Shown here piece by piece: positions 38,992 to 44,006 of a stretch of 64,000 nt of DNA. Within the stretch, counting starts at the first letter, position 1, and the number at the start of each line of letters is the position of its first letter. Position numbers and translations under genes: made by a program. A model generated the notes under the pieces. The model was not told the DNA's origin. It did no database searches and saw only the letters and a list, made by a program, of their open reading frames with translations. Source of the DNA: Leptospiraceae bacterium. Lineage in GTDB: Bacteria > Spirochaetota > Leptospiria > Leptospirales > Leptonemataceae. The DNA lies in NCBI GenBank assembly GCA_026418015.1, contig JAOACE010000013.1:372001-436000 (forward strand), read 5' to 3'.

Positions 38992-40317
38992 ATGAAAAAT
39001 TTTTTTAAAATCATTTCGGATTTCTTCTATCCAGAAAAATTATTAGATGACCAAGTCGAGAAAGTATTTTTTTATTACGATATCGCCAATACAAACATTT
39101 CCCGATTAATCATCTTTAACTATGTTTTATCTATTGGGTTAATAGGAATTCTTACTTTTGATGCCACAAGATATTTAAATAATACCCTTGATGTTTATGC
39201 AAAAGAATTAGCAATTACACATATAGTATTTTTGTTTTATTGTGCGATTACGATTATTTCTTCGAAGTTAATAGCTCGTAGAATTCAGAATCAACTTATT
39301 TTTAGGTTCTTTTTTTTACTCATTGCTTTCTTTTTATTTTTAATATTGATCTGGACTACATTAATTGATCAAAAAGCAAATGGCCAAATTACTGTTATAA
39401 TCATGGGATATTTTGGAGTATCGGTACTTTTATATCTATTTCCTATCGATAGCTTAATCCTCTACATAATAGTTTCTGTAATTTTATTCTACTTTTTACC
39501 TCAGTATCAAACAAACCCTCAGGTTCTAACATCCCATTATATCAATATTCCTATTTTAATATTAATATCTTATTTTATTTCTGTAATTTTTTTTAAAAGC
39601 AAACTCAATGATTTTATCAAAAGCAAAAAAATTGAGCAAACAACATCAGAATTAGACGAGTTAATACAAAAAATTTTACCAATACATGTGGCTTATAAAC
39701 TTCGTAAAGAAAATCGCTTTGAACCTTTTATTAACGAGAATGTTACGATTGTCTTTATTGATTTTGTCTCTTTTAGCACTATTATGGAAAAAACAAACGT
39801 TAACATCGTTTTTAGTGTTCTAGACGAATTATTTAATAAATTTGATAAAGTTATTAAAAAATATAATTTAGAAAAAATTAAAACTATTGGTGATAGCTAC
39901 ATGTTTGCAGGTGGATTATTCTCTGAATATTCGCAAGCAAAAGAATGTGTAGATGCTTGCTTAGAAATCATTGATTTATTAAATAACGAACAAAGTCATT
40001 TATTAGAGAAAACAGGTCATAATTGGTATATTCGAGCAGGAATAGATAAAGGAAAAGTTATCAGTGGAGTAATTGGAGATTGGAGATTTGTTTTTGATAT
40101 ATGGGGAAATTCTGTAAATATTGCATCACGTTTACAAAGTATTTCATTACCCCAAAAAATAAGCATTTCTCGAAATGTATTCGAAGAGATCCGACTTTAT
40201 AATGAATATCATTTTGAACCAAGAGGAAAGTTACCGATTAAAAACCTTCAGCCCATAGAAATATTTTTTGTAGAAAGAACAAAAAAAATGTTGTCAAATG
40301 ATTGGACAAAAAAATAA
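38992..40317 (+). CDS. Membrane-bound class III adenylate cyclase
   Basis: 441 residues. Six hydrophobic segments fill residues ~30-200, then a class III cyclase domain: VTIVFIDFVSFSTIME (first metal Asp), KTIGDSYMFAGGL (substrate Lys and second metal Asp), and FVFDIWGNSVNIASRLQSI (Asp, Asn and Arg of the active site). The Lys/Asp pair points to ATP rather than GTP. No light, PAS or HAMP domain is seen; the membrane part resembles the six-helix module of stand-alone cyclases. A cAMP output fits the cNMP-binding protein at 60824-62602. Confidence 0.88.
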   Translation: MKNFFKIISDFFYPEKLLDDQVEKVFFYYDIANTNISRLIIFNYVLSIGLIGILTFDATRYLNNTLDVYAKELAITHIVFLFYCAITIISSKLIARRIQNQLIFRFFFLLIAFFLFLILIWTTLIDQKANGQITVIIMGYFGVSVLLYLFPIDSLILYIIVSVILFYFLPQYQTNPQVLTSHYINIPILILISYFISVIFFKSKLNDFIKSKKIEQTTSELDELIQKILPIHVAYKLRKENRFEPFINENVTIVFIDFVSFSTIMEKTNVNIVFSVLDELFNKFDKVIKKYNLEKIKTIGDSYMFAGGLFSEYSQAKECVDACLEIIDLLNNEQSHLLEKTGHNWYIRAGIDKGKVISGVIGDWRFVFDIWGNSVNIASRLQSISLPQKISISRNVFEEIRLYNEYHFEPRGKLPIKNLQPIEIFFVERTKKMLSNDWTKK

Positions 40318-40348: not shown

Positions 40349-41539
40349 ATGTGGAAAAAAACATTGTTTATTTTTTTATTTTTTGTGTTAAGCTTACAAG
40401 CCCAAGAAAATGCACCTTTTAATAACTTTGATATAGAATCCATCAATCACTGGAATTTTAAAATTTCTACGGTCAATTGGGAATCTGCAACAATAAAAAA
40501 TGCATTAGATATACCATATACTACTTTTATAAGCGATATAATCAAAGGGAAATATAATTTATTTTTAAACGATTCTCCCAAAAAAATTAAAGGTGTTTCT
40601 TATCAGTTTGCCACACCAAAATGTAGTAAAAACCAATGTTCTGATTTCTATATAAATATTATCACATCAAAATCCAATTATTTTCCAGCGTATAAAAATA
40701 ACATAGAATCAGCAAATACTACTTTTAAAACACAAACAGATACCATCACTACAACCATTGTTAATAATTCAGATGGTATTCTTTCTAGCTCAAAACAAGA
40801 TCTAAAAAATATCTTTTTCGGCTACCAGAACGATTATTATTTACTGCAAAATCATCCCTACTTTAAAAATGTAGGTTTTCGCTTTGGTTTGGGTTTAGAT
40901 ATTTATCAATACAAAGCAACAATTTCTGGAATCGAAGCCCTAAACTCTTTATACATAGAAATTCATCAAAACAATCCATCCCAAAATAAAACGTTGGTAA
41001 ATACTGCAAATATTTACGTAACAAACCAATTAGATTATTTAGAAGCTGCGTTAAAATTAAAAGCTGGCGTTAATTATATTTATGAATTTTTAGAAAAAAA
41101 CTTAGTTTTTATCGGTATAGATCTTCATTACGGTTATGGTGCTGTCAGCTATAAACTAAAAGAAAATCGTATTAATACAGATTTTATTAATATTCTAAAT
41201 AGCGGGACGATTAATCCCCTTGCTATTTCGGCTATTCTTCCTCAATCCAAATTAACCGATGGTCCAGCATTTTTAGAAATTCCAGGTTATGAATATTATC
41301 TTTCTTATGGCTATAAAATTGACCCAAATCAAATTGTTCGCGTAGTTTATAGATACAAACAAGAATATCATAACCTAAAATTACCAAAAATTGAACCAGA
41401 CGAAAACATAAACCTATCTGCTGTCTCGCAAGGAGATCTTACACCTGTTTTACTGTCACAGATCAAGCCTACGGGATTATTACCCAAAAACAGCGAATTT
41501 GTAAGAGAACTTGGCATTGAATATATGTATAAATTCTAA
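40349..41539 (+). CDS. Probable outer-membrane beta-barrel protein
   Basis: 396 residues behind an unusually strong GGGGGG-type RBS. A signal peptide (WKKTLFIFLFFVLSLQAQ) is followed by alternating amphipathic strands with Tyr/Phe, for example NVGFRFGLGLDIYQYKA and YYLSYGYKIDPNQIVRVVYR, and a terminal ...ELGIEYMYKF ending in Phe, as in outer-membrane proteins. Function unknown. Its stop abuts the PPK2 gene start (1 base apart). Confidence 0.65.
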   Translation: MWKKTLFIFLFFVLSLQAQENAPFNNFDIESINHWNFKISTVNWESATIKNALDIPYTTFISDIIKGKYNLFLNDSPKKIKGVSYQFATPKCSKNQCSDFYINIITSKSNYFPAYKNNIESANTTFKTQTDTITTTIVNNSDGILSSSKQDLKNIFFGYQNDYYLLQNHPYFKNVGFRFGLGLDIYQYKATISGIEALNSLYIEIHQNNPSQNKTLVNTANIYVTNQLDYLEAALKLKAGVNYIYEFLEKNLVFIGIDLHYGYGAVSYKLKENRINTDFINILNSGTINPLAISAILPQSKLTDGPAFLEIPGYEYYLSYGYKIDPNQIVRVVYRYKQEYHNLKLPKIEPDENINLSAVSQGDLTPVLLSQIKPTGLLPKNSEFVRELGIEYMYKF

Positions 41540-41540
41540 T

Positions 41541-42815
41541 ATGGCAAATGATCAAGAACTAGATTTATTAAAATTAGAGGTTTCGAACCTACAAAGAAAA
41601 GCAAAAGATAACAAAATACCTATATTGATATTCATCGAGGGGAAAAATTCAAAAAACAAAAAGGAGCTTATAACCAAATTTTTAGACCCCCTCGAACCAA
41701 GAGGATATCATTTTATTTCTGTTAATAAGAGCATTTTTAAATGCAATGGTAAACCAAAAATACTTCTCTTTTTGGAAAAAACACCTTCTTTTGATCAAAT
41801 CTATCTCTTAGACAAAAGCTGGTATAGTTTAAACATCTCCTTAGAAGAAATCGAAATAATAGAAAAGATTCTATCTTCTTATGTTTTAATTATAAAATTT
41901 CTAATAAATAATCAAAAACCATCTAAAATATATAAAAAAATTTATAAATTTAATTTATTAAAAGAATGGAATATTCTCAACAATACGAATAAATTTGAAT
42001 CTCTTAAAAACATTTTTTTAGTCTTTAAAAATAAGGTAGAACAAATAGTAAAAGAAAAGAGCGAAAAACCAATAATTTATGATCCCAAAATCAATGTAAA
42101 TAGCCCTAGCATTTTAGACACCATTGATTTAAATAAATCTCTTACAGAAACAGAATACAAAGAACAATTAGAATATTACCAAAAAGAGTTATCGAGTTTA
42201 CAAAAAAAACTAAAGAAAAAAAAGAAACCGGTTATTATCTTATTAGAAGGGTGGGATGCTGCAGGGAAAGGTGGTTCTATCAGAAGAATTGTTAAAAAAT
42301 TAGATCCACGCTATTATCGAATTATTTCTGTAAGTGCACCAAACGAAAGAGAAAAGAAACATCATTATCTATGGAGATTTTGGACACATCTACCCAAATA
42401 TGGTCAGATTACGATTTTCGATAGAACGTGGTATGGTCGTTTACTTGTAGAAAGAATCGAAGGATTTTGCACTGTGGGAGAATGGCAAAATGCTTTCGAA
42501 GAGATAGCATTATTCGAATCATTACTGACAAAATGGGACTATATATTAATCAAATGTTGGCTACATGTAGATAAAGAAACACAACTAAAACGATTCGAAG
42601 AACGACAAAACAATCCTTACAAACAATGGAAAATAACCGAGGAAGACTGGAGAAATAGAGAAAAATGGGATTTATACAGAGTAGCCTTCGATGAACTTTA
42701 TAAAAAAACCAATACTGATTATGCACCTTGGCATATTATTGAATTCAACTATAAGTGGTTTGGTAGGATCAAGTTACTAAAAGTTATTACAGAAACTATA
42801 AAAAATAATTTATAA
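41541..42815 (+). CDS. Tandem PPK2-family polyphosphate kinase with degenerate first domain
   Basis: 424 residues from the ATG at 41541. The C-terminal half is an intact PPK2 domain: Walker A LLEGWDAAGKGGSIRR (about residue 235), the HYLWRFWTHLPKYGQITIFDRTW-like lid and FDRTWYGRLLVERIE. The N-terminal half keeps the fold (ILIFIEGKNSKNKKELITKF, FLDPLEPRGYHFIS, DKSWYS) but has lost the Walker A Gly-Lys and the FDRTWY Arg. Two-domain PPK2 proteins are usually polyphosphate:AMP phosphotransferases (Pap). It would use polyphosphate to phosphorylate a nucleotide. Confidence 0.85.
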   Translation: MANDQELDLLKLEVSNLQRKAKDNKIPILIFIEGKNSKNKKELITKFLDPLEPRGYHFISVNKSIFKCNGKPKILLFLEKTPSFDQIYLLDKSWYSLNISLEEIEIIEKILSSYVLIIKFLINNQKPSKIYKKIYKFNLLKEWNILNNTNKFESLKNIFLVFKNKVEQIVKEKSEKPIIYDPKINVNSPSILDTIDLNKSLTETEYKEQLEYYQKELSSLQKKLKKKKKPVIILLEGWDAAGKGGSIRRIVKKLDPRYYRIISVSAPNEREKKHHYLWRFWTHLPKYGQITIFDRTWYGRLLVERIEGFCTVGEWQNAFEEIALFESLLTKWDYILIKCWLHVDKETQLKRFEERQNNPYKQWKITEEDWRNREKWDLYRVAFDELYKKTNTDYAPWHIIEFNYKWFGRIKLLKVITETIKNNL

Positions 42816-42956
42816 TAAAATTATATAATCTGATATTGAATTAATTTTAAAAAATTTTTACTAATTTAACTAAATAAAATTCATATATAAATTTTGTTTT
42901 AATTATTAATAAAAATTGATTGATTTATGATTCAAATATTGTATATTATACTTATT

Positions 42957-43226
42957 ATGAAAAGAGTCACATATATAAGTCATTTCGCTAAAACCCTTAC
43001 AAAAGAAGAGATTAATCAAATTGGAGAAATATCTGTAAGAAATAACCAAAGAGATGGACTAACAGGTGTTCTTTTTACTTACAAGAATATATTTTATCAA
43101 ATTATCGAAGGTCCAGAAGACAAATTAGATGCACGATTAGAAAAGATTTTGCAAGACCCTAGACATAGAGATATTTATATTCTAAAAGTAGAAAAAAATA
43201 TTCCCGAAAGAAAATATTCCAATTGA
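42957..43226 (+). CDS. BLUF photoreceptor domain ending at an in-frame TGA (split PAC, N-terminal part)
   Basis: 89 residues from the ATG at 42957. BLUF markers are in place: Tyr6 in RVTYISHF, Asn30 in RNNQRDGLTGVL and Gln48 in FYQIIEGPE, so FAD binding and the Tyr/Gln photocycle network look intact. It lines up with bPAC/OaPAC-type photoactivated cyclases but stops at codon 90 with TGA exactly where those have the BLUF Trp (RKYSN then stop then AM; bPAC has PNWAM). The last beta strand is therefore missing from this polypeptide. The cyclase half continues in the same frame four bases after the stop. Confidence 0.85.
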   Translation: MKRVTYISHFAKTLTKEEINQIGEISVRNNQRDGLTGVLFTYKNIFYQIIEGPEDKLDARLEKILQDPRHRDIYILKVEKNIPERKYSN

Positions 43227-43229
43227 GCA

Positions 43230-44006
43230 ATGAATACTGTTATTCTCGAAGAAGCACAAGAATATCTAATTGAACTAATATCCGAAATGCTCGATGCCAT
43301 TACACAAGGTGCAATAATTTTTGAAAAATACATACCAGAACATGTGATAAAATCCCTCCGATTAGGCAACAATCCCTTAGAAGAAACCGTAAAACAAGTA
43401 GAAAAGGTAATTGTTTTTGGAGATCTTTTCTGCTCTTCCACTTTTGGAGAAAAACTAAAAGAAGAAACTTTTTACAATTTATTAGAATCATTCTTTACAA
43501 TATCTATCGATAAAATTCATGAATCTGGTGGAGAAGTTCTTCGTTTAATGGGAGATGGTTTTATAGCAATTTTTGATTCGAATCAAGTTAGTCCTGCTGT
43601 AGAATCCATTCGAAATATTTCTACGCAACTAAAGGAGTTACGCGAATCTTACGAATCAAAAAGTCCATTTTCCCTAGTCTTCGCAGGATTTGGTATGAGT
43701 AAAGGTAAAGTGCTACAAGGTAATTTAGGTTCAAAATACAAAAAAGATTACACTGTTATCGGAGATCCAGTAAATACCGCAGCAAGACTACAATCAGTTT
43801 CTAGAAAGATTCAACATACCCTTGTTTTTGACGAAAATGTTGCAAAAGAATTACCAAAGAACAACCTAAAATATATTGGAAGGTATACACCCAAAGGCAA
43901 ACTAACGAAAGTTCCTCTTTACACATTAAAGGATAAAGAAATGCAAATCGAATTAAGCTACAACGAAATTTACGAAAGAATCAAAGCTTTAGAAACAAAT
44001 AAATAA
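43230..44006 (+). CDS. Class III nucleotidyl cyclase domain (split PAC, C-terminal part)
   Basis: 258 residues from an ATG in the same frame as the BLUF gene, one codon (GCA) after its TGA; there is no good RBS, so reinitiation is likely. Residues ~6-60 match the coiled linker of bacterial photoactivated cyclases. The cyclase core has metal ligands Asp65 (VFGDLF) and Asp109 (LMGDGF), and Thr175, Asn182 and Arg186 in YTVIGDPVNTAARL. The adenine-specifying Lys is Arg105 here (EVLRLMGD against EVTKFIGD in bPAC). Read through the TGA the product would be 349 residues, the usual PAC length. It would make cAMP if active. Confidence 0.85.
   Translation: MNTVILEEAQEYLIELISEMLDAITQGAIIFEKYIPEHVIKSLRLGNNPLEETVKQVEKVIVFGDLFCSSTFGEKLKEETFYNLLESFFTISIDKIHESGGEVLRLMGDGFIAIFDSNQVSPAVESIRNISTQLKELRESYESKSPFSLVFAGFGMSKGKVLQGNLGSKYKKDYTVIGDPVNTAARLQSVSRKIQHTLVFDENVAKELPKNNLKYIGRYTPKGKLTKVPLYTLKDKEMQIELSYNEIYERIKALETNK

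Follow-up and report, generated by a model that had tools for sequence, protein, structure and literature searches.

Photoactivated adenylyl cyclases (PACs), in which a BLUF domain and a class III cyclase domain are carried on one continuous polypeptide, are known from Oscillatoria acuminata (OaPAC) and Beggiatoa (bPAC). In OaPAC, replacement of the BLUF tryptophan by alanine (W90A) leaves the dark structure in place, but light no longer alters the structure and the enzyme is inactive (PMC10634658); the W90F variant still forms the light state (PMC9486806). In bPAC, the K197A and R278A variants of the cyclase domain can still be photoactivated, at a reduced level (PMC8522238). Among spirochaete enzymes, TpPAC is reported to be light-active, whereas for LiPAC no cyclase activity was detected, either in the dark or in the light (PMC8522238); the first-pass annotation of the locus described here, which took PACs to be established in both Leptonema and Turneriella, was therefore not quite right for Leptonema. 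The literature searched contained no description of a natural split PAC.

A PAC gene from a Leptospiraceae bacterium, an uncultured spirochaete related to Leptonema, resembles OaPAC and bPAC in domain order, length, the flavin-pocket residues Tyr6, Asn30, Gln48 and Met92, the metal-binding aspartates and the predicted fold. It differs from them in having an in-frame stop at the codon for Trp90 and an arginine at the base-recognition position Lys196.

Architecture of the interrupted PAC gene

The window is the whole stretch of DNA that was analysed, 64,000 nucleotides of contig JAOACE010000013.1 (assembly GCA_026418015.1, positions 372,001 to 436,000), and positions given without a contig refer to it. 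On the plus strand, a single frame at 42957-44006 runs through 89 codons, a TGA and a further 259 codons to a TAA at 44004-44006. The first 89 codons (42957-43223) encode strands beta1 to beta4 of a BLUF domain (Pfam PF04940, 83.9 bits), including Tyr6, Asn30 and Gln48. The TGA (43224-43226) is followed by GCA and by an ATG (43230-43232), which in the alignment is the codon of Met92, invariant across the aligned PACs, and which could serve as a restart codon. From this ATG, an ORF of 258 residues (43230-44006) encodes the rest of the BLUF domain (beta5), the connector helices and the class III cyclase domain (Pfam Guanylate_cyc, 37.7 bits on 43230-44003). The longest ORF on the BLUF side (42927-43226, 99 residues) uses an alternative in-frame ATG at 42927, although the homologues begin at the MKR encoded from 42957.

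When the TGA is read as tryptophan, the product has 349 residues and aligns with OaPAC and bPAC over almost its whole length and with no large gaps (E about 1e-73), in agreement with the PAC-like length proposed in the annotation. An AlphaFold model in which the TGA is read as a residue has a pLDDT of 87, and Foldseek gives TM-scores of up to 0.82 against the bPAC and OaPAC structures. No second stop or frameshift is present across the 349 codons. The arrangement of a BLUF domain, a TGA and a class III cyclase in one frame was confirmed by the sequence and by Pfam; it is real and well beyond chance.

Together with a PPK2 gene, the interrupted gene occupies 41511-44006, at a synteny break point. 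Within the genus, one genome (G002) has neither the PPK2 gene nor a PAC gene between the same flanks, and in another (G003) these flanks lie about 18-20 kb apart, so that neither provides an orthologous allele for comparison. The single scan of named species genomes had one match, the G003 copy, which is of the type of the second PAC gene discussed below (PAC2), and no plasmid match was found. Another class III cyclase gene (38992-40317; PF00211, 140 bits) is located about 2.6 kb upstream of it.

Conservation of Trp90 and of the catalytic residues

The position of the TGA is strictly conserved in related proteins. The column is tryptophan throughout the rest of a 16-row alignment, in each of the other 20 PACs from the class and in OaPAC, and the codon is TGG in all relatives extracted at the codon level. 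This agrees with the annotation, in which the TGA was placed at the BLUF tryptophan. Trp90 would be the sole tryptophan encoded by the gene, and the stop falls exactly on this codon. The codon is considered critical because the light response of OaPAC is lost in W90A (PMC10634658). The gene has the Tyr, Asn and Gln residues expected of the BLUF domain of a PAC, lacks the conserved Trp90 and, under the standard code, does not encode one continuous polypeptide.

The interrupted gene departs from its relatives at six highly conserved columns, none of which lies in the BLUF half. The cyclase part retains the metal-binding Asp156 and Asp200 as well as Asp270 and the transition-state residues Asn273 and Arg277, and the adenine-specifying Lys196 is replaced by arginine (Arg105 of the ORF starting at 43230). 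This replacement was already pointed out in the annotation, and at no other column that is otherwise invariant does the gene have a change of its own. The accompanying statement that everything else is conserved thus holds for the BLUF half and is weakened for the cyclase by K196R. Neither K196R nor the R277K change found in PAC2 proves inactivity on its own, since the corresponding bPAC variants K197A and R278A stay photoactivatable (PMC8522238).

Decoding of TGA in the genome

TGA is an ordinary stop codon in this genome. The RF2 gene (prfB) is encoded, and TGA is the stop codon of 15 other ORFs of at least 110 residues in the window, where reading through it would add no more than 41 codons. 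One tRNA-Trp is present, with the anticodon CCA and a normal anticodon stem in which the top 27-43 pair is intact, and a UCA anticodon is absent from all 36 tRNA genes found and read. Variants of tRNA-Trp with a short, 4-bp stem have been linked to UGA readthrough (PMC13092985). With a single normal tRNA-Trp(CCA) and no UCA tRNA, there is no sign here of such a short-stem form or of UGA reassignment, and a change of the genetic code (UGA as tryptophan) is ruled out by RF2, the tRNA set and TGA usage. Background misreading of UGA, or a restart, could leave traces of product, although there is no sign that the cell makes use of this.

Signals for recoding or restart were also searched for around the stop. 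The RNA fold is no better than that of shuffled sequence (z = -0.39), giving no recoding structure, and no Shine-Dalgarno sequence precedes 43230. The latter is weak evidence, because about half of the sampled genes in this genome start without one too. Among the relatives in the 48 genomes of the class and in 393 genomes of the phylum, no gene split at the Trp90 point was found. The ATG follows the stop after three bases, as in a termination-reinitiation pair, but the Shine-Dalgarno sequence, notable fold and split relatives that would go with such a pair are missing. The ATG was not gained for restart either, since the same codon specifies the invariant Met92. Nothing in these features marks a built two-polypeptide design.

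Related PACs and a lesioned subclade

In the 48 genomes of the class, 20 full-length PACs (the interrupted gene counted) were found in addition to LiPAC, and the 393 genomes of the phylum contain 23 BLUF domains above the Pfam cut-off. Only two of these 23 domains have an in-frame stop. One is the interrupted gene and the other is L015 (1501-2538), a PAC gene on contig C314 of genome G035 with a TGA at BLUF codon 11, which may be a true lesion or may have arisen in assembly. In a maximum-likelihood tree, the interrupted gene, L015, L018 and the pair L001/L010 form one clade (support 100/99). All of these lineages are altered: by the TGA at Trp90, by the TGA at codon 11, by a deletion of 88 residues in the cyclase and by catalytic substitutions, respectively. 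Lesions are present in four of four lineages of this subclade and in none of the 16 other PACs of the class (Fisher p = 0.0002; p = 0.0035 when only nonsense mutations and the deletion are counted), and as the comparison was set up post hoc with a loose definition of a lesion, these p-values are indicative only.

L007, which we take to be TpPAC of Turneriella parva, belongs to the same bacterial class, has the same architecture and is 41% identical to the interrupted gene. Unlike the latter, it is intact and falls outside the lesioned subclade. The most similar relative is LiPAC (L018, 994-1779 on the minus strand), at 56% identity, which is located in the genome of Leptonema illini 3055T (G008) and is the sole BLUF gene of that genome. 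LiPAC shares the subclade and is also lesioned, but in a different way: its BLUF domain is intact, and an in-frame deletion has taken out about 88 cyclase residues, among them the first metal-binding aspartate (Asp156) and Lys196. As judged from the residues removed, this deletion probably explains the published inactivity of LiPAC.

A second PAC gene in the same genome

The same genome (G000) encodes a second BLUF-PAC, PAC2 (L001), at 76012-77049 of contig C17. PAC2 and its orthologue in G003 (L010) share the subclade and the architecture of the interrupted gene, with 50% identity to it. In contrast to the interrupted gene, they have an intact BLUF domain with Trp90 and changed catalytic residues: Asp270 is replaced by tyrosine or histidine, Arg277 by lysine and Lys315 by glutamine. 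Between PAC2 and the G003 copy, 8 synonymous and 5 non-synonymous changes were counted (dN/dS 0.15), a departure from neutrality with a binomial p of about 0.001. This ratio indicates that PAC2 is maintained despite its changed active site and suggests a light sensor kept with a degraded active site. On these patterns, a subclade holding light sensors that are kept without normal catalysis appears likelier than a working split or readthrough PAC.

PAC2 lies in a light-response island (L033; contig C17, about 65-80.5 kb), most of which has a GC content of about 22%. The island encodes a photolyase, two cyclopropane synthase-like proteins, DUF1365 and DUF1295 proteins, an amine oxidase and a MerR regulator with a weak match to a B12-binding domain (LitR-like), and a class III cyclase with a DUF5939 domain adjoins PAC2. 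The stretch with PAC2 is about 91% identical to G003 (dS about 0.1), against 75-81% for its flanks (downstream dS about 1.6), and this difference indicates a recent exchange between species of the genus. Contamination was rejected as the source of PAC2, since synteny between the contig and G003 continues on either side of the 91% block (75-79% and about 81% identity). A heterodimer of PAC2 and the product of the interrupted gene, whose active-site losses are complementary, was also considered but gained no support, as G003 carries PAC2 without the interrupted gene.

Origin and consequences of the stop at Trp90

The TGA is most likely the result of a recent TGG-to-TGA nonsense mutation in a PAC type that has been lost repeatedly in this group. 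This was the first of three options in the first-pass annotation, and it is supported by the TGG in every relative, by the lack of any other stop or frameshift and by the independent damage in the sister genes. As expected of a nonsense pseudogene, the premature stop interrupts a frame that is conserved in all other respects, and the homologues do not share it. The mutation would have hit a gene for a BLUF domain and a class III cyclase at the tryptophan that relays the BLUF light signal. The main product would be a BLUF fragment of 89 residues that lacks beta5 and the cyclase, and light-driven cAMP synthesis from this gene would be lost or nearly so. The arginine in place of the catalytic Lys196 fits this reading too. 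Such a loss was probably tolerated through weak selection on this PAC type, as indicated by the different kinds of damage in the sister genes, and through the presence of the second BLUF-PAC in the light-response island.

The age of the lesion was approached with a rough neutral simulation. In this simulation, a frame free of further stops has a 12% chance when neutral divergence is 5.7% and a 3% chance when it is 9.6%, which suggests that divergence above about 6-10% would in most cases have produced a further stop. As a long-dead gene is expected to gain a second lesion, the single stop fits only a young mutation or continued function. The single stop and the lack of departures at highly conserved columns of the BLUF half both point either to a young stop or to a gene that is still of use.

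Another explanation is an assembly error or a minority allele, with TGG as the true or majority form. The assembly is a draft of 28 contigs and a single G-to-A transition would be sufficient. Against this, the contig is 506 kb long, the completeness is 97.9% with 0.56% contamination, and none of the other genes in the window stood out as interrupted. In addition, the independent lesions in the subclade, one of them in the genome of the Leptonema illini type strain, make a real lesion less surprising, and an error is considered unlikely.

It is slightly less likely still that the gene yields a working light-controlled cyclase, whether from two chains or by low-level readthrough of UGA as tryptophan, with the stop setting the dose of full-length enzyme. 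The annotation had offered both routes; neither gained support, as no reassignment, suppressor tRNA, odd tRNA-Trp stem, Shine-Dalgarno sequence or unusual fold was found and the ATG is that of Met92.

In the readthrough route, tRNA-Trp(CCA) would misread UGA at a useful rate, giving some full-length native PAC and an excess of the BLUF fragment. The position of the stop counts against the nonsense mutation in this respect, since Trp90 is where misreading by tRNA-Trp would reinsert the exact native residue. The intact frame on either side, the fully conserved BLUF half and the fact that the second nonsense case of the subclade (L015) is likewise a TGA also fit this route. However, the TGA of L015 replaces a residue that is not tryptophan in any relative, and no relative has a TGA at the Trp90 site. 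The normal tRNA-Trp stem, with its intact 27-43 pair, differs from the 4-bp-stem variants (PMC13092985), RF2 is present and the downstream RNA structure is not unusual. Useful readthrough is therefore regarded as very unlikely.

The least credible route, given hardly any weight, is that the BLUF fragment and a restarted, beta5-bearing cyclase reassemble into a light-controlled enzyme: the in-frame ATG three bases past the stop, its counterpart in L015 (where Met92 is again the first in-frame start codon past the TGA), the retained metal-binding aspartates, Asp270, Asn273 and Arg277, and the many genes here that start without a Shine-Dalgarno sequence would allow it, but the ATG encodes the Met92 that every PAC shares and has no such sequence, Trp90 would be lost (W90A abolishes the light response of OaPAC; PMC10634658), Lys196 is arginine, and the split would cut beta5, which the AlphaFold model places at residues 93-96, from the BLUF sheet.

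Implications for spirochaete PACs

Taken alone, the interrupted gene is an ordinary young nonsense lesion, strikingly placed at the residue that relays the BLUF signal. Were a functional split or readthrough PAC to exist, it would offer a new means of building a light-gated cyclase or of setting its dose. In the wider family, every lineage seen in one branch of the spirochaete PACs carries damage. This pattern would account simply, at the level of sequence, for the reported inactivity of LiPAC, and it makes PAC2 a candidate light sensor that is kept although its active site is degraded.
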